Shown here in pieces: positions 702 to 31,067 of a stretch of 32,452 nucleotides of DNA. Position 1 is the first letter of the stretch, and each line of letters begins with the position of its first letter. Under the pieces are notes generated by a model. It saw nothing but the letters and a program-made list of their open reading frames with translations, had not been told where the DNA came from and made no database searches. Source of the stretch: Bacteroidota bacterium (GTDB taxonomy: Bacteria; Bacteroidota; Ignavibacteria; Kapaibacteriales; UBA2268); NCBI GenBank assembly GCA_009777815.1, contig WRLB01000015.1:1-32452 (forward strand), written 5' to 3'. A program made the position numbers and the translations under genes.

Positions 702-1670
702 TTATTCCTTTCCTACGATACTTCCTGTATCTTCTTCGCCTTCTACTACGCCGACATTGACGCAGTTGGAAACATTTACATTTTGGTTAAACATATAACC
801 AAGAACACCGCCAACAATATTTATTCCTCGCACATAGCCGTAGTTTATACAGTTGGTGATTGGCGTTGGATTATTTGGACTATTATTGTTTGCCAAGCCA
901 ACTATTCCGCCAACAAAACCCTGCCCTACAACGCTACCTAAATTAACACAATTTGAAATATTTTGACAACGATTAGCAACTGTGCCAACAATACCACCGA
1001 CTCCACTGAATATATTATTATCACCCGAAGCCGTGGCTGTTATTTTTCCTGTATTGATGCAATTTATTATAGTTCCTTCGTTTTCTCCTGCAATTCCGCC
1101 GATTCTATCCACGCCCGTTATATCGCCGTTGTTGATGCAATTGGAAATGGCACCCATATTTTGGTATACTATACTACCTGCTCCAATGCCTGTAATTATA
1201 GCATTGTTTATACAATTTGTAATACTACCACTACTATAATTGATGAAAATAGATATAGCAGACAATGTAGAATTTCCGTTTACATAGCCATCTACAATCA
1301 AACTATCAATACTTCCACTTGGTAATCCATTAAAAAGAGCATAACTTTGATTAGTATAATAATCAAAATTTATTGCTAAAGTTATTTTTTTACCATTTCC
1401 GTGAAAATGTCCTATAAAGCCAAGTTTACCTACGGATTCAGTAAGTGGTTCTGTAATATCATTCATTAACTTGAAATGTTTATTATAAAGCCAAGTTGGA
1501 TTAAGAGAAGAATAACGGTAATCTATAGAATCAGCAAGTTCTATTAAATCTTTTTTCTCCCATATTTGAAATGGATCATATTCTGAACCATCACCATTGC
1601 CATTAAAAGATGGATTTTGAGCAAATAATAAGATGTTTGAAAAAACAAATAATATAAAACATTTTTTCAT
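702..1670 (-). CDS. GLUG-repeat-like secreted protein
   Basis: ORF 702..1685. The ATG (MKKCFILFVFSNILLFAQ) is at 1670 with GGAGGA upstream; the tracked 1685 start is TTG. Repeats of the form GGIAGENEGTIINCINTGKI. Confidence 0.8.
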   Translation of the reverse strand: MKKCFILFVFSNILLFAQNPSFNGNGDGSEYDPFQIWEKKDLIELADSIDYRYSSLNPTWLYNKHFKLMNDITEPLTESVGKLGFIGHFHGNGKKITLAINFDYYTNQSYALFNGLPSGSIDSLIVDGYVNGNSTLSAISIFINYSSGSITNCINNAIITGIGAGSIVYQNMGAISNCINNGDITGVDRIGGIAGENEGTIINCINTGKITATASGDNNIFSGVGGIVGTVANRCQNISNCVNLGSVVGQGFVGGIVGLANNNSPNNPTPITNCINYGYVRGINIVGGVLGYMFNQNVNVSNCVNVGVVEGEEDTGSIVGKE

Positions 1671-1683
1671 ATTTCCTCCGACC

Positions 1684-1707
1684 AACAGCGGGCTTTTGCC
1701 CGCTGTT
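1684..1707 (-). terminator. Intergenic hairpin
   Basis: Perfect inverted repeat aacagcgggc-tttt-gcccgctgtt between two minus-strand GLUG genes; no strong T-run. Confidence 0.45.
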
Positions 1708-1723
1708 AATTTCTAATTAAAAA

Positions 1724-3289
1724 TTACCTTCCTACATTAATAGGAATCTTTTTTTCAAAAAATATGCTATAATTTCCTGAATAAAAACCATTATAATTGT
1801 TGCTTATAAGCCAATTATAGTCAAGTTGCACTGATAATGTATCCTGCCTTGGTATAAAAACATTAGCGATATTGGAAGGTGGCGGTGGCACACTAATAAA
1901 ATTCATTATCGAATTAGGATAATGTATCCAAGGTAAAGTATTGCTAAAACTTCCCCATAAATATGGGAATGGAATAGGTGGCGGCGGCAAAAAAGGCGGA
2001 ACAGTGAAATAATTCGACACATAAAACGGTGCCGTTACATTGTCTAACCTTTCTGGATCGCCTGTAATTGGATTATCTTGCAGATATATCGGCGCTGCTG
2101 ATAGCAAGATTATCGGATGATCAGGGGGACCAGTATTATAGCCAGTTCGGGGATAAAGGTTATTCTGAAAATGCCAACACTCCATACCATTACATAAGTA
2201 AGCACTCAAATTATTACCTGTCATAGAGTTTGTAACTAAACCGTTTTGTGGCGTATTTGTTCCTTGCAAACCTGCACCTATTGCCAAAGGAACACTCATC
2301 TGATTATCATAAAAACAATTTTCTACGTAACCATTATTTATACCCGCAATAGAGCCAGAACTCTGCGATGTGCCAGTCACCCAATTGGTATTAAGACATT
2401 CATAAATAGACGCTTCAGGTTCTATGCAACCTACTATGCCACCAACACAATAAATAGCACCATCTACTATGCCCGAGTTTGCACTTATTCCAATGCTACC
2501 CTTGAAAATACGAGCAACTATGCCACCTGCATAATTAGAATTGCTACTCAATATCTTGCCGATATTTACTGAATTATGCATATACGTATTATTACAGTAT
2601 GCGGTAATGCCAGCAATATAAATACCGCCATCTACTACAACATTGTTGCATTGTATTGTACCTGCATTCTTGCAGAATCTTATACCGGCTTCTATAGTTA
2701 CCCCTATAATCCCTGCAATGTGCTGTCCGCCAGTGATTGTGCCGTTATTGACGCATTCGTAAACATCGCCGCCAGCAACTATTCCAACTATGCCACCAAC
2801 ACTGGAATTATTAGCAAGACCTGTAACATCAGCAAGATTTGTGCAGTTACTAATGTTACTTGATAGAAATTCACCTACCAAACCGCCAACATACTGGCTT
2901 GCATATCCACCGACTACAGAACCATCTACGATAAGATTCTGTATAACACCAGCAACTTGGCTAAACAAGCCAACATTAGTAGCATTAGTATCAATGTCGA
3001 CATAAATTAGATGATTGTTGCCATCAAATCTGCCTCGGAAAGTGCCACCTAACATCTGAGTAACAGGTGTTGTTAGTATAGATGAACTCGGCACGCCGAC
3101 ATCATCCATAAGATAGTAAATATTGCCTGCCGTCTGATTATTGTTAATGGCATTTGCAAAATCCTGCCAAGTTATATCATTGGGAGGATTTGGACTTCCT
3201 ACTATGTTATAAGTAGCAGAATACAAACTTGCTGATGCTAAAAATATCAAGCAAGTTATTAAAACGAAAATAACTGATTTTTTAATCAT
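1724..3289 (-). CDS. GLUG-repeat-like secreted protein with proline-rich C-terminal region
   Basis: 521 aa, signal peptide MIKKSVIFVLITCLIFLASASLYSA, repeats GGLVGEFLSSNISNCTNLADVTG / GGIVGIVAGGDVYECVNNGTITG. Confidence 0.85.
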   Translation of the reverse strand: MIKKSVIFVLITCLIFLASASLYSATYNIVGSPNPPNDITWQDFANAINNNQTAGNIYYLMDDVGVPSSSILTTPVTQMLGGTFRGRFDGNNHLIYVDIDTNATNVGLFSQVAGVIQNLIVDGSVVGGYASQYVGGLVGEFLSSNISNCTNLADVTGLANNSSVGGIVGIVAGGDVYECVNNGTITGGQHIAGIIGVTIEAGIRFCKNAGTIQCNNVVVDGGIYIAGITAYCNNTYMHNSVNIGKILSSNSNYAGGIVARIFKGSIGISANSGIVDGAIYCVGGIVGCIEPEASIYECLNTNWVTGTSQSSGSIAGINNGYVENCFYDNQMSVPLAIGAGLQGTNTPQNGLVTNSMTGNNLSAYLCNGMECWHFQNNLYPRTGYNTGPPDHPIILLSAAPIYLQDNPITGDPERLDNVTAPFYVSNYFTVPPFLPPPPIPFPYLWGSFSNTLPWIHYPNSIMNFISVPPPPSNIANVFIPRQDTLSVQLDYNWLISNNYNGFYSGNYSIFFEKKIPINVGR

Positions 3290-3489: not shown

Positions 3490-4635
3490 ATGAATAAGAA
3501 TCATTTTTTTACATCAGAGTCGGTGTCAGAAGGACATCCAGATAAGATATGCGACCAAATATCAGATGCAATATTAGATGCTATGCTAACTGATGACCCT
3601 AAAAGTAGAGTCGCTTGTGAATGCTATACAACCACAGGATTAGTTGTTGTAGGCGGTGAAATATCTACTAATACATATGTAGAAATTCCTTCATTGGTAA
3701 GAAATGTTATTAGAGATATTGGTTATGACAGAACAGAATTACGTTTTGATGCGGATTCGGTTGGCATTGTCAATGTAATAGACCATCAATCTCCCGATAT
3801 AGCAATGGGAACTAATGATGAAGTAAATGGTGCAGGCGATCAAGGTATTATGTTCGGTTACGCCATAAATGAAACAAAAAGTTATATGCCTGCGGCATTA
3901 GAATATTCGCATAAATTAGTGAAAAGATTAGCAGATATTCGCAAAGATAAAACTAATCAACTAATGCCATATATTCGTCCTGATGCTAAATCACAAGTGA
4001 CTATTGAATATAGTCCTGATGGCGAAATTTTGCGTATTGATACTATTATAATTTCTACTCAACATTCACCTGACGTTAGCCAGCAAAAAATAAAAGACGA
4101 TTGTATTGATTTTGTTATAAGTCATTGCATACCTAAAGAATTGGTAGACGAAAATACTAAATATTATATCAATCCTACGGGAAGATTTATTATTGGTGGT
4201 CCTCACGGCGACACAGGACTTACAGGTAGAAAAATTATTGTTGATAGTTATGGTGGCAAATGCCCTCACGGAGGCGGAGCATTTTCAGGTAAAGACCCAA
4301 CTAAAGTAGATAGAAGTGCTACATATGCTGCTCGCCATTTAGCCAAAAATATCGTTGCAGCAGGCGTTACTAATGAATGCACTATTCAACTTTCTTACGC
4401 TATTGGTATGCCTGAACCTATTTCTATATTTGTTGATATTAACGACAAAGATAAATCTTTTGAGATTGGTAGATATATTCAAAAAGAAATAGATTTAACG
4501 CCAAGCGGCATTATTAAACGGCTTGATTTAAGAAAACCTATTTACCGTAATACTTCTAATTATGGACACTTCGGCAGAGATGGTTTTTCTTGGGAAGAGT
4601 TAAATTTAGTAAAACAATTCGAACAATTTAAGTAG
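3490..4635 (+). CDS. metK: S-adenosylmethionine synthetase
   Basis: 381 aa; FTSESVSEGHPDKICDQISDAILDA, GAGDQGIMFGYA, GGAFSGKDPTKVDRSA, FGRDGFSWE are MetK signatures. Confidence 0.98.
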   Translation: MNKNHFFTSESVSEGHPDKICDQISDAILDAMLTDDPKSRVACECYTTTGLVVVGGEISTNTYVEIPSLVRNVIRDIGYDRTELRFDADSVGIVNVIDHQSPDIAMGTNDEVNGAGDQGIMFGYAINETKSYMPAALEYSHKLVKRLADIRKDKTNQLMPYIRPDAKSQVTIEYSPDGEILRIDTIIISTQHSPDVSQQKIKDDCIDFVISHCIPKELVDENTKYYINPTGRFIIGGPHGDTGLTGRKIIVDSYGGKCPHGGGAFSGKDPTKVDRSATYAARHLAKNIVAAGVTNECTIQLSYAIGMPEPISIFVDINDKDKSFEIGRYIQKEIDLTPSGIIKRLDLRKPIYRNTSNYGHFGRDGFSWEELNLVKQFEQFK

Positions 4636-4662
4636 ATTATGAAATCAACTGATAAAAGTGAT

Positions 4663-4850: not shown

Positions 4851-6496
4851 ATGTATAAAAAACATTTTAATTCATTTTCAGGCAAAATAAGTCCTGACAG
4901 AAAAAATTTTAACACCTCCTCCTATGCCGATGTTTGTAGTGATATTACTACAAGCAATGTAGTGGAAACTACTACACGGGGGGGGGGATTCCTACTACAA
5001 AGCGTGTAGTAGTTTTACTACTTTTTCTCGCAACCGCTAATTTAATCGCACAAACACCAATTACTTTTACTGCTGCCGCTCCGCCAACTCTTACGCAATC
5101 TGATGTGAATGCACAAGTATCAGGCATTACATATCCGTTTAGTGCTATTATTAATAGCCCAATAACTATATTAGGTAATAATGCTTTTAGTGGAGTTAAT
5201 ACCACTAATGGAAATTATTTAGTTAGTGTAAATGCACCTAATGTAATAACTATTAGAATGGCTGTTTTTACTAATTGCAGTAGTTTAGAAAGTGCAACTT
5301 TTCCGCTTGCTGAAACTATTGGTAATAGTGCTTTTTATGAATGCAGTAGTTTAGAAAGCGTTGAGTTTCCTTTTGTAAAAACTATTGATAATAGTGCTTT
5401 TCGGATTTGCAGCAGTTTAGTAAGCGTTGAGTTTCCTTTTGTAGAAACTATTGGTAATAGTGCTTTTGAGATTTGCATAAGTTTAGAAAATGTAGATTTC
5501 CCGAAGGCGGAAAGCATTGGTAATAGTGCTTTTGATAATTGCAGACAATTAAATAGTATAAAATTAGGAGCATTGCCGCCGACATTAGGAACGAATGTGT
5601 TCAATAACGTAACTTTATCAAAAGTTACACTGCGTATTCCTGAGGGCTCATTGTGTGCTTATCAGGATGATTCAGATTGGGGAGCAGCATTTTTAGCCCA
5701 ATTTGATGCTGTGGAAGAATATTCAGTTGCCACTCCCGTAACTTATTATACTTTGGCGGTGAATGTCAGTGGCAATGGCAGTGCAACGAGTGGTGCCACA
5801 GGTATAACTTGTGGTAATACTAAAACGCTCACAGCAACGCCGGATGCTTTTCATCAGTTTGTCAATTGGACGAGTGATAACGGCTTTTCATCAACTGCAA
5901 ATCCTCTTGATATAGTTGTAAAAAGTGATACAAATATAGTAGCACACTTTATTATGATTTCGTCTGTACATACATTGACGCTTGACGATGATGGCAATGG
6001 TAGTGCAAGTGTTTCAGGAGGTTCAACGACAGGAATAACTTTCGGTGATAGTAGAACAATAACCGCAACGCCGAATGCTTGCTATCAATTTGCTAAATGG
6101 ACTAATAGTAATGGTGATAGCATTTCTAATGTTAGTTCACTTAATATTTCTGTTATAAGAGATACTCTTTTAAAGGCGAATTTTATTCCTATTTCGCCTG
6201 CACCTACATATACATTAAGTGTAAATAGCAATAATACTACGATGGGGACGGCAAGTTCTTTGGTATCATCGGCAACTTGTGGGAGCATTGTATCCGTGAC
6301 GGCAACGCCAAATGCGGGTTACAAATTTGTAGGTTGGCAGGAGGGGCTATATTTAGTATCAACGGCGGATACATATACTTTTAACATTACTGCTAACACA
6401 TCACTAACAGCAGTATTTGATGATGTCAAAAAGAAAACCCGCATCAAGAAAATAAATGTAAAAAAAGGTAGAGTAAGAATTAAGCCACAGCCGTAA
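4851..6496 (+). CDS. BspA-type LRR / InlB-B-repeat surface protein, putatively phase-variable; reading frame interrupted at a G10 tract
   Basis: ATG at 4851 runs 42 codons into G10 (4978-4987) and stops at TAG 5007-5009. With G9 it is in frame with IPTTKRVVVLLLFLATANLIAQ (signal peptide) and the long ORF to 6496. The tracked ORF starts only at internal ATG 5105. Confidence 0.75.
4966..5015 (+). other. Inverted repeat with homopolymeric G10 tract in its loop
   Basis: Arms aaactactacacg (4966-4978) and cgtgtagtagttt (5003-5015), 13 bp perfect. Confidence 0.85.
5267..5530 (+). repeat. Four tandem 66-bp (22-aa) leucine-rich repeats
   Basis: Units F-TNCSSLESATFPLAETIGNSA / F-YECSSLESVEFPFVKTIDNSA / F-RICSSLVSVEFPFVETIGNSA / F-EICISLENVDFPKAESIGNSA. 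Confidence 0.9.
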
Positions 6497-6517
6497 AAGG
6501 TGGTTGCAAGACATTTT

Positions 6518-6541
6518 AACACGGGGAATAATCCCCGTGTT
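6518..6541 (+). terminator. Hairpin, putative terminator after LRR gene
   Basis: aacacgggga-ataa-tccccgtgtt followed by atatgttttttt. Confidence 0.65.
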
Positions 6542-6593
6542 ATATGTTTTTTTATCGTATATTTTCGTATTTTTGTGTAAAAACAAAATAAAA

Positions 6594-7907
6594 ATGAAAT
6601 CAACTGAAAACGAAAAGCAATATATTTACATAGTTCAGGCGTTGCTTGAGCCGTCAAAATGCAAAATAGGTGTAACTAAAAATCTTGAAAAAAGATTAAA
6701 AAGTTATAACAATATTACTGGTGTTTCCAAAGAAAATACTTACGAGTATTTATATACTTGCGAAGTTAAAGATATGCGGAAAGTGGAGAATGATATTAAA
6801 GAAGAGTATTATTTTGTTAGAGAGGATGTAAAAAAAGAAATATATTTATATACTGATGAATTGTTTAAAAAGATTGTTAATTTCATAAAATCACATAAAT
6901 TATTTGTAGAAGAAGTATTTATAAAAAAGGAAGTTAAACCCGAAGTAGAAAAAATAATAAAAATAGTAAAACGAACAACCCCGCCTCTTGATGAACGAGG
7001 AATAACACGCAAAGATGTAATGCAAAGCGCACAGAATATTGACAATGACGAGTTTTATACCCGCTATGAAGATGTTGAAAAAGAGTTGTCAATGTATGAT
7101 AAAAGTATTTGGAAAGACAAGGTTGTGTTTTGCAATTGTGATGATGCAGTTGATACTGATGAACGTAAAACATCGGCATTTGCTTTATATTTTTTATTAA
7201 ACTTTAAAGAACTTGATTTAAAGAAATTAATATGCACGCATTATGCAAATGCTGTGGATTTATTCAATCAGGGTCCAAAAGGTTATATTTATACTCGTGA
7301 ATTTACGAGGAATGGTTTCAAGGAATATACAGATTATCCGAGGGGTTACAATGGCAGTTTTGACCATCCATTGTCATTAAAAATACTCAACGAAGAAGCG
7401 GATATAGTATGCACTAATCCACCTTTTTCCAGAGCAATAGATTACTGGAAACTTCTTATAGAAAGTGGCAAGAAGTTTCTTATAATTTCAAATATAACAA
7501 ATGTTTTAAATACGGCATATATTCCATATTTTCAAGAAAATAAGGTATGGGCAGGTTATAATAGCGTAAATAATTATCTAAATCCTAAACGTCAACCAAC
7601 TGACGCAGCAGGTCATTGGTATACAAATTTTCCTGTAAAAGATAGACCAAAATACAAACTTCTAAAAATAATGCCATTAAAAAATATACCTGAAATTTAT
7701 AAAATATATGATGATTCTAAAACATTATTAGTAGATAATTGCTACATCCCAAGTAATTATAAGAAACCTTTTGCTGTATCTACTCGTTCAATATTAAATG
7801 GAATATTGGAAAAAGGATATAAAATCGTCAAAGAAAAACGATATGATCCCTATATAAAAGGTAAAAAGAAATTTGCAAGAGTGCTAATACAGAAAATAGA
7901 AAAATAA
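6594..7907 (+). CDS. GIY-YIG/T5orf172-like domain fused to EcoRI-type adenine-specific DNA methyltransferase
   Basis: N-term YIYIVQALLEPSKCKIGVTKNLEKRLKSYNN...VENDIKEEY; C-term NIDNDEFYTRYEDVEKEL, KVVFCNCDD, LKKLICTHY, ADIVCTNPPFSRAIDYWKLLIESGKKFLIISNITNVLN. Likely start ATG 6594 rather than tracked 6504. Confidence 0.8.
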   Translation: MKSTENEKQYIYIVQALLEPSKCKIGVTKNLEKRLKSYNNITGVSKENTYEYLYTCEVKDMRKVENDIKEEYYFVREDVKKEIYLYTDELFKKIVNFIKSHKLFVEEVFIKKEVKPEVEKIIKIVKRTTPPLDERGITRKDVMQSAQNIDNDEFYTRYEDVEKELSMYDKSIWKDKVVFCNCDDAVDTDERKTSAFALYFLLNFKELDLKKLICTHYANAVDLFNQGPKGYIYTREFTRNGFKEYTDYPRGYNGSFDHPLSLKILNEEADIVCTNPPFSRAIDYWKLLIESGKKFLIISNITNVLNTAYIPYFQENKVWAGYNSVNNYLNPKRQPTDAAGHWYTNFPVKDRPKYKLLKIMPLKNIPEIYKIYDDSKTLLVDNCYIPSNYKKPFAVSTRSILNGILEKGYKIVKEKRYDPYIKGKKKFARVLIQKIEK

Positions 7908-19263: not shown

Positions 19264-19417
19264 AATTATGTAAAAATTACATAAATCGGATGCGGAATAA
19301 TTAGTAACTTTTACTGCTTAAGCAGTAACTTTTACTGCTTAAGCAGTAACTTTTACTGCTTAAGCAGTAACTTTTACTGCTTTTTCAACATCCGTTTTAA
19401 GTAATTTTTACATAATT
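19264..19417. repeat. Inverted-repeat-bounded element enclosing 21-bp tandem palindromic repeats
   Basis: Perfect 17-bp termini aattatgtaaaaattac (19264-19280) / gtaatttttacataatt (19401-19417), extending imperfectly to about 35 bp; interior agtaacttttactgcttaagc x about 3.8 (19303-19382). Confidence 0.9.
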
Positions 19418-21934: not shown

Positions 21935-22810
21935 ATGAAACAATTAAATAAAAATAATTTTGCAATGTTATTAGTTTGGATATTAGTATTTATGATATTT
22001 TGGCTATATCCATTAATTTATTCAGCAATTTTAAGTTTTTATGATTATCATACATTAACTAAAGAAAGCAATTTTGTGGGTTTTGATAATTATTTGAAAA
22101 TGTTTTCAGATAAATTATTTTGGAAAGCATTGTTAAATACTTGCATCTTTACATTAGGCACCGTGCCATTTACAACAACTATCGCATTAGTATTAGCAGT
22201 TTTATTAAACAACAATAAAATAAAATTCAAAAACTTCTTTAAAGCAGCATTTTTTATTCCATCAATAACTTCATTAGTTGTATTATCATTAATATTCACA
22301 AACTTATACGCAAAACATGGATATATAAATATAATTTTATCATCATTATCGTTGCCTTATCCTTCTATGGGCTGGCTTTTAGACACTAAAACATCGCTAT
22401 TATCAATAATGTTAATGGATATATGGTCTTCTTGCGGTTACTATATGATAATTATACTTGCAGCATTACAAACAATAAGTTCATCAATATATGATTCAGT
22501 TAGATTAACGGGTGCGAGTTCGTTTTATACATTAATACGAATAACTATACCTTTATTAAAACCCACACTCGTATTTGTTTTAATCATTAATTTAATAAAA
22601 TCGTTCCAAATATTTATAGAGATATTTATAATGACTAAAGGCGGTCCTTTACATTCTTCAACAACGTTAGTATATATGATATTTGTAAATGGCTTTGATA
22701 AAACAAATATGATGGGCTATGCTTCAGCAATTTCATATTTCTTATTTTTATTTCTATTAGTATTCTCTTTCTTCCAATTATCTTTGATTAAAGAGAAAAA
22801 GTATAGATAA
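21935..22810 (+). CDS. Carbohydrate ABC transporter permease (MalF/UgpA-like)
   Basis: 291 aa, multiple TM helices; LSFYDYHTLTKESNFVGFDNYLKMFSD, EAA-loop-like YDSVRLTGASSFYTLIRITIPLLKP, TKGGP. Confidence 0.9.
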   Translation: MKQLNKNNFAMLLVWILVFMIFWLYPLIYSAILSFYDYHTLTKESNFVGFDNYLKMFSDKLFWKALLNTCIFTLGTVPFTTTIALVLAVLLNNNKIKFKNFFKAAFFIPSITSLVVLSLIFTNLYAKHGYINIILSSLSLPYPSMGWLLDTKTSLLSIMLMDIWSSCGYYMIIILAALQTISSSIYDSVRLTGASSFYTLIRITIPLLKPTLVFVLIINLIKSFQIFIEIFIMTKGGPLHSSTTLVYMIFVNGFDKTNMMGYASAISYFLFLFLLVFSFFQLSLIKEKKYR

Positions 22811-22820
22811 AATAAATAAT

Positions 22821-23358
22821 AAAAAAAACAGCAAAGCCGAAGCCCTGCTGTTAAAATTATTTAACTAAGTCTAAATTAAAAATTATTAAAAAAAAACTTA
22901 ACGCAAAAATACACTTTTTTCAAAAAATAAATAAAAAAAACAGCAAAGCCGAAGCCATGCTGTTAGAATTAGTTTTTTTACAAATAATAACTATTACAAA
23001 AATACACTTTTTTCTGTAAATAAAAAAAAACAGCAAAACCGACGCCCTGCTGTTAGAATTATGCTAAAAATAAAAATATACAATAAGCATTTTTTTATTA
23101 TTTACAAAAATACACTTTTTTCAAAAAATAAATAAAAAAACAGCAAAACCGAAAGCCCTGCTGTTAGGACACTTTGTTATTTACATTTTTTTATTTTACA
23201 AAAATACACTTTTTTTCTATAATAAAAAAAAACAGCAAAACCGAAGCTATGCTGTTAAAAACCATATGAAAAAAAAATTAAAAAAATTTTTTATCACCAC
23301 AAAAATACACTTTTTTCTATAAAAAAAACAGCAAAACCGAAGCCATGCTGTTAGAATT
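22821..23358 (-). repeat. Six-unit array of intrinsic-terminator hairpins alternating with TATTTTTG promoter-like boxes
   Basis: Hairpins at 22827-22852, 22939-22964, 23029-23054, 23139-23165, 23231-23256, 23327-23352. Minus-strand consensus AACAGCA-nGGC-TTCG-Gnnn-TGCTGTT followed by 7 or more Ts. CAAAAATACACTTTTTT between them (about 22903, 22996, 23104, 23198, 23299). Confidence 0.85.
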
Positions 23359-23480: not shown

Positions 23481-23606
23481 GATAGCGATACCCATAAAAT
23501 TACCTTAATGTTAATAGCAATGCCACTAATGTTTGTTTGACCACGTTTATGGTAACGGTCGTATTGATAGTTTAATCGTAGAAGGAGTAGTAAATACTAC
23601 TCCTTT
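23481..23606 (+). pseudogene. Decayed GLUG-repeat gene fragment
   Basis: Plus-strand frames read HKITL / NVNSNATNV / VYGNGRIDSLIVEGVVN, matching ITVNINENATNVGLFSQVDGGSIYNLIVDGSVV of the GLUG proteins but with frameshifts. Confidence 0.6.
23582..23605. terminator. Hairpin, putative terminator
   Basis: aaggagtagt-aaat-actactcctt; flanked by T-rich tract on plus. Confidence 0.6.
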
Positions 23607-23618
23607 TCTTTCTTTTTC

Positions 23619-24593
23619 TTACTGATTGTTTTCAATAATACGGATACCAATATTTTTTGCTCCCGTTATTGCATTTCCTAATGGTTGGATTAAATTAAAT
23701 TTAGAATTTTTATTTAATTTGTCCTTTAACATATTTCCTAGCAAAGTATCATTATCAATGATACCTCCCAGCAGTGCTACATCTACTTTTTTAGTTTTAA
23801 AATGCTTAATTAAAGACAATGGCAATTCGGTTAAGTGGTCTGAAGCCCGCTTAATGATATTCATACAAACTTCGTCTTCTTCCATAGCACACTGCATAAC
23901 TAATGGCGTAATGTTTTGATATTCAAATAATTTATCATTGTATGAACTAACAATAGTTCGTGGTTCATTAATATCAAAACGAGGAATTTGATGTTGTAGT
24001 TTTTCTATTAGAGAGGTTTTTTTGCCTCTGCCATCAAGAGAACGAACAACAGCAGTAATGCCTTCGCGTCCTACCCAGGCGCCGCTTCCTTCGTCATCTA
24101 GTTCAATTCCCCATCCGCCGCATCGTGCTAATGGTTTATTATCATCATATTTAGCAAGTCCGATGGACCCTGTTCCCACGATTGATATAATTCCGTGATT
24201 TCCATTTAATGCACCTTCTATAGCAATTTCAGCATCACTTGTAACTATAAGGTCGTTTATAGTATTTTTAGAAGTAGATGCGAGTGTTTTTATAAGGTGC
24301 ATTGCTCGTTTTTTTTCATTTTCAAGCCATACACCTGCTAATCCGACTACAACTATATCTATTTCTGTAATTTTGGACACATTAGCCATTTTGCATAACT
24401 CTACAATCATATTTAGAGTTCTTTCACATGCTTCGCCGAAGCCGATGGCACCGATACGTGTTGTTCCGAATTTTAGTTCAGCGGCAATATTGTCGCCTGA
24501 AAACAGCACTCCGTGTGTTTTTGTTCCACCGCCGTCTATACAAATTATTTTATAATCTTCTTTTGTCATAATATTTTTTAATAACTTTAACAT
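23619..24593 (-). CDS. BadF/BadG/BcrA/BcrD-family ATPase, N-acetylglucosamine kinase-like
   Basis: 324 aa; ICIDGGGTKTHGVLFSGD, GIISIVGTGSIGLA, RCGGWGIELDDEGSGAWVGREGI. Confidence 0.9.
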   Translation of the reverse strand: MLKLLKNIMTKEDYKIICIDGGGTKTHGVLFSGDNIAAELKFGTTRIGAIGFGEACERTLNMIVELCKMANVSKITEIDIVVVGLAGVWLENEKKRAMHLIKTLASTSKNTINDLIVTSDAEIAIEGALNGNHGIISIVGTGSIGLAKYDDNKPLARCGGWGIELDDEGSGAWVGREGITAVVRSLDGRGKKTSLIEKLQHQIPRFDINEPRTIVSSYNDKLFEYQNITPLVMQCAMEEDEVCMNIIKRASDHLTELPLSLIKHFKTKKVDVALLGGIIDNDTLLGNMLKDKLNKNSKFNLIQPLGNAITGAKNIGIRIIENNQ

Positions 24594-28506: not shown

Positions 28507-29361
28507 ATGCTAAATGTAATAAAACAAGATAAATATAAATTTGTAGTTAATGATGTAGTTCGGCAAATTTTAATCAACGAACAACAACCAACTATAAATC
28601 CTATTTATAAAATTAAAGAAACAACTTTGTATAATGCTGATTGTTTGGATAGGAATTTGTTTGATACGCCATTTATTGATTTGGTTGTGACATCGCCGCC
28701 GTATAATGTTGGAATAGATTATAATTCTAATGATGATGAATTGGATTATGAGCAATATCTTGATTTTTCTGAAAAATGGCTTTCTAATTGTTATAAATGG
28801 AGTAATACAAATGGGCGTTTATGTATGAATATACCTTTGGATAAAAATAAAGGCGGGCATAGAGCAGTTGGTGCGGACTTAACTAAAATAGCACAAAAAG
28901 TAGGTTGGAAATATAAAACAACTATTATTTGGAACGAAGGAAATATTTCTCGGCGAACTGCTTGGGGAAGTTGGAAATCTGCTTCTGCTCCCGTAGTTAT
29001 TGCTCCTGTGGAACTAATAGTTGTTATGTATAAAGACGAATGGAAGAAAGTAAATGGCTCTAAAATATCAGATATAACAGCAGATGAGTTTAAAGAATGG
29101 ACTAATGGAGTTTGGATATTTAATGGTGAAAGTAAAAAAAGGATTGGACATCCTGCACCATTTCCAAAAGAACTTCCATATAGATGTATAAAATTGTTTA
29201 GTTATCAAAATGACTTAATATTTGATCCTTTTACGGGCAGTGGAACTACATTATTAATGGCTCAAAACTTAAATAGAAGGGCGATAGGTGTTGAAATAGA
29301 CACTAATTATTGTGAGTTAGCAAAAAATAGAATATTTTTAGAAACAAATACTATTATTTAA
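28507..29361 (+). CDS. Site-specific DNA methyltransferase (N4/N6 amino-MTase)
   Basis: 284 aa; VVTSPPYNVGIDY (motif IV) and FDPFTGSGTTLLMAQNLNRRAIGVEID (motif I). Confidence 0.93.
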   Translation: MLNVIKQDKYKFVVNDVVRQILINEQQPTINPIYKIKETTLYNADCLDRNLFDTPFIDLVVTSPPYNVGIDYNSNDDELDYEQYLDFSEKWLSNCYKWSNTNGRLCMNIPLDKNKGGHRAVGADLTKIAQKVGWKYKTTIIWNEGNISRRTAWGSWKSASAPVVIAPVELIVVMYKDEWKKVNGSKISDITADEFKEWTNGVWIFNGESKKRIGHPAPFPKELPYRCIKLFSYQNDLIFDPFTGSGTTLLMAQNLNRRAIGVEIDTNYCELAKNRIFLETNTII

Positions 29362-29364
29362 TTT

Positions 29365-29934
29365 ATGGGAAAAACAAAGTTTTCACAACAAGATTTAATA
29401 AAGTATCCAAAATGCAGTGTTTGTGAACAAATAATAGATAGAAAAATATTGACAATCATTGATGGTGATTGTTGGCGATGCAATAGACCAATGAAAATAG
29501 CATCTATTTCGTCGAGCAATGGACAAATGGTTCGTGGTTCTTCGAATATATCTCCTGCTGATTTTACACAAGATGAAATCCGTATTTCAGAATCAAAAGG
29601 TGTTATTTTAAAAGAACATTACAGTAATACTATGCAGTGTTATTATATAGCAAACACTTGCCAAAGTTGTGGCACATTTATAGGAGAGCATTATTTATTT
29701 ACTGAATATATTGCACCTGCATCTTGGGGTAATATGCATTCAGAATGTTTTGATATCGGTAATAATTATAATTGTGACTGGTGCTACTTACATATTGAAG
29801 AAAACATTGATTGGAAAAATTTAAACCAAACAGAGACAGCAAAGAAAATGTTTATTCACTTATACGAATTAACAAAAATAAAAGGTGAAACAACATTAAA
29901 CAATTTTGCAACAGATATATTAAAAGTGTTCTAA
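29365..29934 (+). CDS. Hypothetical Cys-rich (zinc-binding) protein
   Basis: 189 aa; four CxxC pairs CSVC, CWRC, CQSC, CDWC; starts 4 bp after the MTase stop. Confidence 0.65.
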   Translation: MGKTKFSQQDLIKYPKCSVCEQIIDRKILTIIDGDCWRCNRPMKIASISSSNGQMVRGSSNISPADFTQDEIRISESKGVILKEHYSNTMQCYYIANTCQSCGTFIGEHYLFTEYIAPASWGNMHSECFDIGNNYNCDWCYLHIEENIDWKNLNQTETAKKMFIHLYELTKIKGETTLNNFATDILKVF

Positions 29935-29993
29935 AAATATAATATAAACGGGCATCTTGATTGGAATAAGTAAAATATTAAAGAAAAATAAGT

Positions 29994-31067
29994 ATGTATA
30001 TAAAAGATAATAACATAATAGAAAAAGATATTAAAAGCGTTGCAAAAAATAACAATTTGCTGCTAAACAATAAAATAATATGCGGTGACTGTAATGAAGT
30101 GTTAGCATCTTTGCCAAGTGATAGTATAGATTTAATTATTACAAGTCCTCCATATTTTCAGCAAAGAGAATATTGTGGCAAAATAGGTATTGGTAATGAA
30201 TCAACTATTGACGAGTATATTGAAAATTTAATTAGCATATTTTATCAATGTGTTAGAGTGATAAAAAATACAGGTTCTGTTGTGTTCAATATAGGTGATA
30301 AGTATGTCAATGGTAGTTTATTGTTAGTTCCTTACAGATTTGCAATAGAAGCACAAAAAGAATATAGTGTTAAACTTATAAATGAAGTTATATGGCATAA
30401 AATTAATCCTACTCCCAAACAAGTTACGAACAAACTAATTCCTTCTAATGAACCTTTTTTTATTTTTACTAAATCTAATGATTACTATTTTAATAAAAAT
30501 GCTTTTTTAGAATATAAAGATAAATATTCTAATAAAAAAAAGAAAATAGGCAACGACATAGGTAAAAAATATTTTGAACTTATTGATAAATCAGATTTAT
30601 CAAAAGAGCAAAAAGAATTAGCAAAAAAAGAATTAAATAATGTAATAAAAGAAGTGAAAGATGGAACTATAGATAGTTTTAGAATGAAAATCAAAGGACT
30701 ACATGCTCTTCCATATGGAGGACAAGCAGGTGGCAGGTTAACACAAATAGAAAATAATGGTTTTACTATTATTAAAATATATGGTAATTCTATGCGTATG
30801 GATTTCATTGAATCTACGGTAGAATCTATTAAAGGTAATATACATCCTGCTGTTTTCCCTGAATTTGTTATTCAAGAATTTATTAAAATGTTAAGCAATG
30901 AGAATGATATTGTTCTAGATCCATTTGTAGGTTCAGGCACAACAGCAATTGCATCTAAAAAACTTAACAGAAAATACTTAGGAATAGATATCCATAAAGA
31001 ATATGTAGAATATGCAAATAAAAGAATTAATGAATGTAATACAGAATTAACGGAGATATTTATATGA
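29994..31067 (+). CDS. Site-specific DNA methyltransferase (N4/N6 amino-MTase)
   Basis: 357 aa; LIITSPPYFQQREYCGK (motif IV) and LDPFVGSGTTAIASKKLNRKYLGIDI (motif I). Confidence 0.93.
   Translation: MYIKDNNIIEKDIKSVAKNNNLLLNNKIICGDCNEVLASLPSDSIDLIITSPPYFQQREYCGKIGIGNESTIDEYIENLISIFYQCVRVIKNTGSVVFNIGDKYVNGSLLLVPYRFAIEAQKEYSVKLINEVIWHKINPTPKQVTNKLIPSNEPFFIFTKSNDYYFNKNAFLEYKDKYSNKKKKIGNDIGKKYFELIDKSDLSKEQKELAKKELNNVIKEVKDGTIDSFRMKIKGLHALPYGGQAGGRLTQIENNGFTIIKIYGNSMRMDFIESTVESIKGNIHPAVFPEFVIQEFIKMLSNENDIVLDPFVGSGTTAIASKKLNRKYLGIDIHKEYVEYANKRINECNTELTEIFI

Follow-up and report, generated by a model that had tools for sequence, protein, structure and literature searches.

Two described bacterial systems come closest to the locus reported here. 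In Nostoc sp. PCC 7120, the ∼60-nt small RNA (sRNA) NsiR1 is encoded in a single array of 12 tandem copies, each driven by a promoter of its own, in which the 7 central copies are identical and the outer ones mildly diverged, and these diverged copies target the translation initiation regions of different mRNAs (PMC9045159). In Bacteroides thetaiotaomicron, the 14 paralogous FopS sRNAs (65-70 nt) carry a TAnnTTTG-type (sigma-ABfr) promoter, share a conserved 5' seed and block translation near start codons with the RRM_1 protein RbpB as partner, a tandem arrangement not being described for them (PMC11697453). Taken together, NsiR1 and FopS show that the layout and the mode of action that we propose here both exist in known systems.

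Akin to NsiR1, the arrays described below are tandem and have a promoter in each unit, but they belong to a family spread over at least 34 loci, their transcribed variable segments (bodies) are unrelated, only promoter and terminator are constant, and no sequence relation to NsiR1 is known. While the NsiR1 copies are near-identical RNAs, the 81 box-bearing bodies found here fall into 50 singletons and 11 clusters. The family shares with FopS its multicopy nature and the TAnnTTTG-type promoter, and this genome encodes a single RRM_1 RNA-binding protein (contig C45, 2162-2368, L200), the domain type of RbpB. In contrast to FopS, it is the 5' body that varies and the 3' terminator that is constant, and instead of a shared 5' seed the bodies, judged among themselves, have nothing but short words in common. 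A literature search turned up no description of such a scale, of the constant-3'/variable-5' design or of a spread over at least 34 loci.

The window, by which we mean the whole stretch of 32,452 nucleotides analysed, is part of a metagenomic assembly (MAG) representing one genome of ∼2 Mb, 73% complete, in which open reading frames (ORFs) were called mechanically by a simple script. The MAG belongs to an Ignavibacteria family, its closest named relative by NuoD being Ignavibacteria bacterium AS23ysBPME_80 (81%). Positions 22821-23358 of the window carry six terminator hairpins and five promoter boxes, all on the minus strand, between two convergent genes. The features are as follows.

21935-22810, plus strand: flanking convergent gene, ABC transporter permease (BPD_transp_1; Pfam PF00528, E 1.7e-9)
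22820-22899, minus strand: predicted sRNA unit of ~80 nt, with +1 near 22899, body, hairpin 22827-22852 and U-run; fold z -4.86
22904-22920, minus strand: promoter box of this unit, AAAAAAGTGTATTTTTG; layout matches 287 gene promoters
22932-22992, minus strand: predicted sRNA unit of ~61 nt, hairpin 22939-22964; fold z -2.69
22997-23013, minus strand: promoter box of this unit, from the box search against shuffles and the promoter layout
23021-23100, minus strand: predicted sRNA unit of ~80 nt, hairpin 23029-23054; fold z -4.33
23105-23121, minus strand: promoter box of this unit, same basis (box search against shuffles, promoter layout)
23132-23194, minus strand: predicted sRNA unit of ~63 nt, hairpin 23139-23165; fold z -1.96; predicted minimum-energy fold differs from the terminator hairpin
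23199-23215, minus strand: promoter box of this unit, same basis (box search against shuffles, promoter layout)
23223-23295, minus strand: predicted sRNA unit of ~73 nt, hairpin 23231-23256, UCAUA in body; fold z -4.15
23300-23316, minus strand: promoter box of this unit, same basis (box search against shuffles, promoter layout)
23327-23352, minus strand: first hairpin of the array in the direction of transcription, without an array-type box upstream
23619-24593, minus strand: flanking upstream gene, BadF/BadG/BcrA/BcrD ATPase family (Pfam PF01869, E 6.9e-27)

The hairpins start 112, 90, 110, 92 and 96 bp apart, and the hairpin pattern, present six times, is expected 0.00 times in dinucleotide shuffles. 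A search for the box CAAAAATACACTTTTT with up to two mismatches returned nine sites (five exact) against 0.24 expected in dinucleotide shuffles. An earlier note, made from the sequence of this DNA, had described a six-unit array; the six hairpins and their 90-112 bp spacing are as it stated, whereas the number of units has to be corrected, since the five boxes sit between hairpins and none of array type lies upstream of hairpin 23327-23352, which leaves five promoter-driven units and one lone hairpin. This hairpin may be either a gene terminator or part of a unit driven by another promoter. The five promoter-driven units would give RNAs of 61-80 nt. Together with the first-hairpin region, these RNAs have fold z scores of -2.0 to -4.9, mainly due to the terminator. 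The C(UUCG)G tetraloop that had been noted in several units is found in four of the six hairpins, the other two having a GUCG loop (23029) and a 5-nt loop (23139). Past the array, a terminator-like hairpin lies on the plus strand (23580-23607), and plus-strand transcription from the permease gene could cross the whole array antisense and end there.

Read on the minus strand, the window hairpins lead into T-runs. The earlier note had deduced the transcribed strand from G-U pairs, and this holds for the family at large: of 91 26-mers, 91 have stem columns 9-18 paired when read on the transcribed strand and 12 when read on the other, with 87 versus 17 for columns 10-17. Columns 8-19 switch between GU (41) and UA (36), with 13 unpaired (Fisher p 5e-13, which is no independent-sample p value because the units are related). 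A covariation check, also proposed at the time, turned out positive at this single pair, where 8 of 23 distinct hairpins show changes on both sides; no other pair covaries. By these features the family hairpins are predicted to be intrinsic terminators, on the minus strand in the window. The same genome has another abundant repeated terminator-like palindrome, AACACGGGG..CCCCGTGTT with T-runs, of which 42 copies are dispersed (e.g. on contigs C1, C10 and C44), mostly without a box; we counted it among the other terminator-like hairpins.

The promoter assignment draws on the genes of the genome itself. In the 50 nt preceding start codons the core TATTTTTG is found 273 times, compared to ∼10 per bin inside genes, and it peaks on the coding strand only, while CAAAAATAC shows no peak before starts in the same ORF set. 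A logo of 287 gene promoters consists of a T-tract (-19 to -14 from the box), an A-tract (-10 to -4), nnT, TATTTTTG, T and A; the 78 array promoters follow this layout with GTG preceding TATTTTTG. Earlier work has identified TAnnTTTG as the -7 element used by primary sigma factors of Bacteroidota (PMC9723704, PMC7366714). The array box, which had been recognised from the start as a -7 box of this type, is to all appearances an ordinary promoter of this genome. When +1 is predicted by placing the box at -12 to -5, it falls mostly on a purine after T in the array logo. A hairpin follows 65 of the 83 AAAGTGTATTTTTG-type sites, and of the remaining 18 the majority stand a short way ahead of protein-coding starts. 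The units thus have what marks an autonomous sRNA gene, namely a promoter of the organism's own type and an intrinsic terminator on the same strand. On contig C9 (9282-9650; L031 ~4283-4650), a stretch with a GC-rich start (GCGTGCATCGTGGCGCGTGCAGCG...) lies between two array units and directly follows an array-type promoter box.

The window array is one of many. The hairpin pattern has 93 copies in the MAG and its reversed control none, and a regular-expression search over 1.64 Mb (85%) of the MAG returned 96 hairpins, including a few whose inner stem is unrelated, in 34 loci (16 solitary, 18 arrays of 2-9). Contig starts are no more than 250 bases away from at least four loci, so the true number is probably higher. 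Outside this MAG the block could not be traced, so that of the search suggested in the earlier note only the half concerning the genome itself was productive: the hairpin was not found in the other 53 genomes of the family or, save one stray match with three mismatches, elsewhere among the 123 genomes of the order. In collections that may omit this genome itself, the unit pattern was not found in GTDB contigs or IMG/VR, nor did the window array match phages or plasmids. No comparable array was seen in ∼300 kb of the nearest relative scanned for clustered terminators, and matches of a 69-nt unit in relatives were rejected as AT-rich or promoter-like chance matches rather than arrays. Rfam returned no relevant family at gathering and E-value thresholds, the unit scoring below the gathering threshold. 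The cassette family is thus known from one MAG alone.

Other repeats and genes were encountered on the way. A 34-nt palindrome, CAATTATATAATTGGTTTwCCGATTATATAATTG, occurs in nine places (contigs C2, C28, C29, C42, C43, C55, C59, C60 and C75) and looks like a small dispersed repeat. Within the window, a 21-bp unit, AGTAACTTTTACTGCTTAAGC, is present in 3.8 perfect copies at 19303-19382, with nested hairpins followed by T-rich stretches, and a 66-bp tandem repeat (4.1 copies, 5275-5544) lies inside ORF 5105-6496, whose predicted product looks like a leucine-rich-repeat surface protein. The protein encoded at 6504-7907 combines a T5orf172 domain with an EcoRI-type adenine methylase; its N-terminus resembles that of a protein encoded on contig C47 (12394-13683), next to a solitary hairpin. 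Two N6_N4 DNA methylase genes near each other at 28507-31067 possibly form a restriction-modification locus.

A second cassette family, with the hairpin AACACAyyTGCnnnnGyArrTGTGTT of unrelated sequence, has eight copies in the part read and nine genome-wide. A TATTTTTG box lies 37-62 nt upstream in 8/8 copies, most with a different extension (AAATATTTTCnnTATTTTTG), and the bodies are unrelated; two pairs of the stem show U-A to C-G changes. Copies were located at:

contig C43 (L163), 1157-2722, minus strand: second-family copies
contig C7, ~39732-39857, plus strand: second-family copies
contig C60 (L180), 288-412: second-family copies

Flagellar genes adjoin six of the eight copies (flgD, a putative flagellar gene and flgE-like on C43; fliM on C7), and the second family could be a flagellar sRNA set. 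That two families follow one logic with different sequences points to design rather than to one lucky repeat.

The predicted RNAs are 56-105 nt long (median 72), and the bodies listed span 28-77 nt. Compared to GC-matched intergenic sequence the bodies fold slightly better (mean z -0.77 versus -0.27, p 0.002). Apart from homopolymer runs, their strongest four-letter word is CATA, extended by one base to TCATA; enrichments of TTT and AAA were disregarded, since overlaps were counted in real but not in shuffled sequences, whereas CATA cannot overlap itself. TCATA occurs 17 times in 66 non-redundant bodies, where dinucleotide shuffles give 3.8 and intergenic controls matched for GC and T give 3.5 ± 1.8; the exact word is partly post hoc, because CAU had been picked by eye before the word test. 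For its reverse complement, TATGA, no clear enrichment is seen (4 in bodies, versus 3.4 in shuffles and 2.2 in intergenic controls). The excess persists under a stricter redundancy cut and against a second-order Markov expectation (13 versus 4.9), and at 5.96 per kb the word is denser in bodies than in a 3'-UTR control (1.6) or gene leaders (1.44). The second family independently has the word in three of eight copies versus 0.5 expected (p 0.005). In this genome T stands before 62% of start codons and A after 56%, so UCAUA complements the preferred start context, UAUGA. An excess on the sense strand only of a word complementary to this context suggests antisense blocking of translation starts. 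The complementarity of bodies to start regions, scored as free or anchored helix stacks, was not above shuffles, in scans to which the AT-rich sequence leaves little power, and pairing between bodies was hardly above shuffles either. The comparison of the variable segments with mRNA starts, which the earlier note had suggested, thus gave no signal above shuffles. The Hfq family was not found in this 73%-complete genome.

How far could the same observations arise without functional sRNAs? The chief rival is a dispersed promoter-terminator repeat, passive or selfish, spread by recombination or by an unseen mobile mechanism, with transcripts as by-products and bodies as drifting filler. REP/BIME-type repeats are short intergenic palindromes found in arrays, many copies per genome, and to our knowledge they have neither a promoter per unit nor a unit-specific transcribed body. 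The present family resembles them in all of the former respects, is restricted to one lineage and occupies at least 34 loci beside unrelated genes; some bodies appear copied between arrays (several clusters span arrays on different contigs, and the body of window unit 23021-23100 recurs in the last unit of the array on C17), and the target scans lacked signal above shuffles. Unlike a passive palindrome devoid of transcription signals, however, 81% of the family hairpins have a box 25-95 nt upstream, compared to 12% of the genome's other terminator-like hairpins. The earlier note had regarded genome-wide dispersal as evidence against sRNA genes, and dispersed the family is; yet the unit keeps its promoter and terminator, two separated functional elements, around unrelated bodies, which the other dispersed terminator family, AACACGGGG..CCCCGTGTT, does not, and it is thus not simply a passive repeat. 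This element-specific conservation, the strand-specific UCAUA excess and the identical design of the second family weaken the rival, which we consider unlikely.

Still less probable is that the units are terminator-promoter insulators at gene borders, whose hairpins stop upstream transcription and whose last promoter drives the next gene, extra units being redundant. Many arrays are indeed followed, after 45-125 nt, by a codirectional gene, some such genes are directly preceded by the same promoter, such as nuoA-like (C5) and rpsS-like (C9), and several solitary hairpins stand 24-80 nt behind a gene, as ordinary terminators do; but a convergent gene lies opposite the window array and several others, up to nine units would be superfluous for such a role, and the UCAUA excess is left unexplained. 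A CRISPR-like or guide-memory array of captured segments, which the earlier note had already discounted despite constant blocks alternating with variable segments, can practically be dismissed, as bodies vary in length and each unit has a promoter, where a CRISPR array has uniform spacers, identical repeats and no promoter per unit, no reverse transcriptase family was found in the 73%-complete genome, and the bodies matched the rest of their own genome no better than shuffles and, for the 25 more complex ones, no known phage better than E 0.4, leaving phage-derived and self-derived origins of the bodies without support.

We therefore return to the proposal of the earlier note, tandem sRNA genes whose units combine a promoter of their own with a variable 5' part and a constant 3' hairpin. 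Comparative evidence now supports it well, in the form of the promoter logo, the strand-specific G-U pairs, the covariation, the association of box with terminator and the second family. With a conserved promoter and terminator around a variable body, the unit most likely constitutes an autonomous gene that yields an RNA of ~60-80 nt. On the basis of promoter identity, transcribed strand, terminator covariation, the second family and the strand-specificity of UCAUA, independently transcribed sRNA cassettes are the probable reading. The window array would then comprise five tandem, independently transcribed minus-strand sRNA genes and one further hairpin, and would belong to a lineage-specific family of cassettes that occupies at least 34 loci and counts at least 93 hairpins. 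Every cassette would start with a primary (sigma-A-type) promoter in a conserved GTG variant and continue with a hypervariable body of ~28-77 nt, often folding into a 5' hairpin; the constant intrinsic terminator AACAGCA..UUCG..UGCUGUU-Un would close the RNA, its U-run passing over into the T-tract of the promoter that follows. The bodies might pair in trans with translation start regions via the UCAUA core, flanking bases setting the target preference. That they are antisense RNAs acting at start codons we propose tentatively; the explanation as a whole, tandem sRNA genes with UCAUA-mediated antisense action at start regions, is the one towards which we lean. It is conceivable, if rather doubtful, that the ~100 cassettes of the two families constitute genome-wide modular riboregulators in a 2-Mb genome, with fixed promoter and terminator and fast-changing anti-start-codon bodies, new sRNAs arising by duplication and body replacement.

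If expressed, the cassettes would form by far the largest multicopy sRNA family known to us in one small genome and would turn around what is usual among sibling sRNAs, the 3' end being constant and the 5' end variable. The anti-start-codon word provides a concrete functional hypothesis, and the birth and diversification of new sRNAs could be tested directly, since dozens of recent sister units that share promoter and terminator stand side by side.
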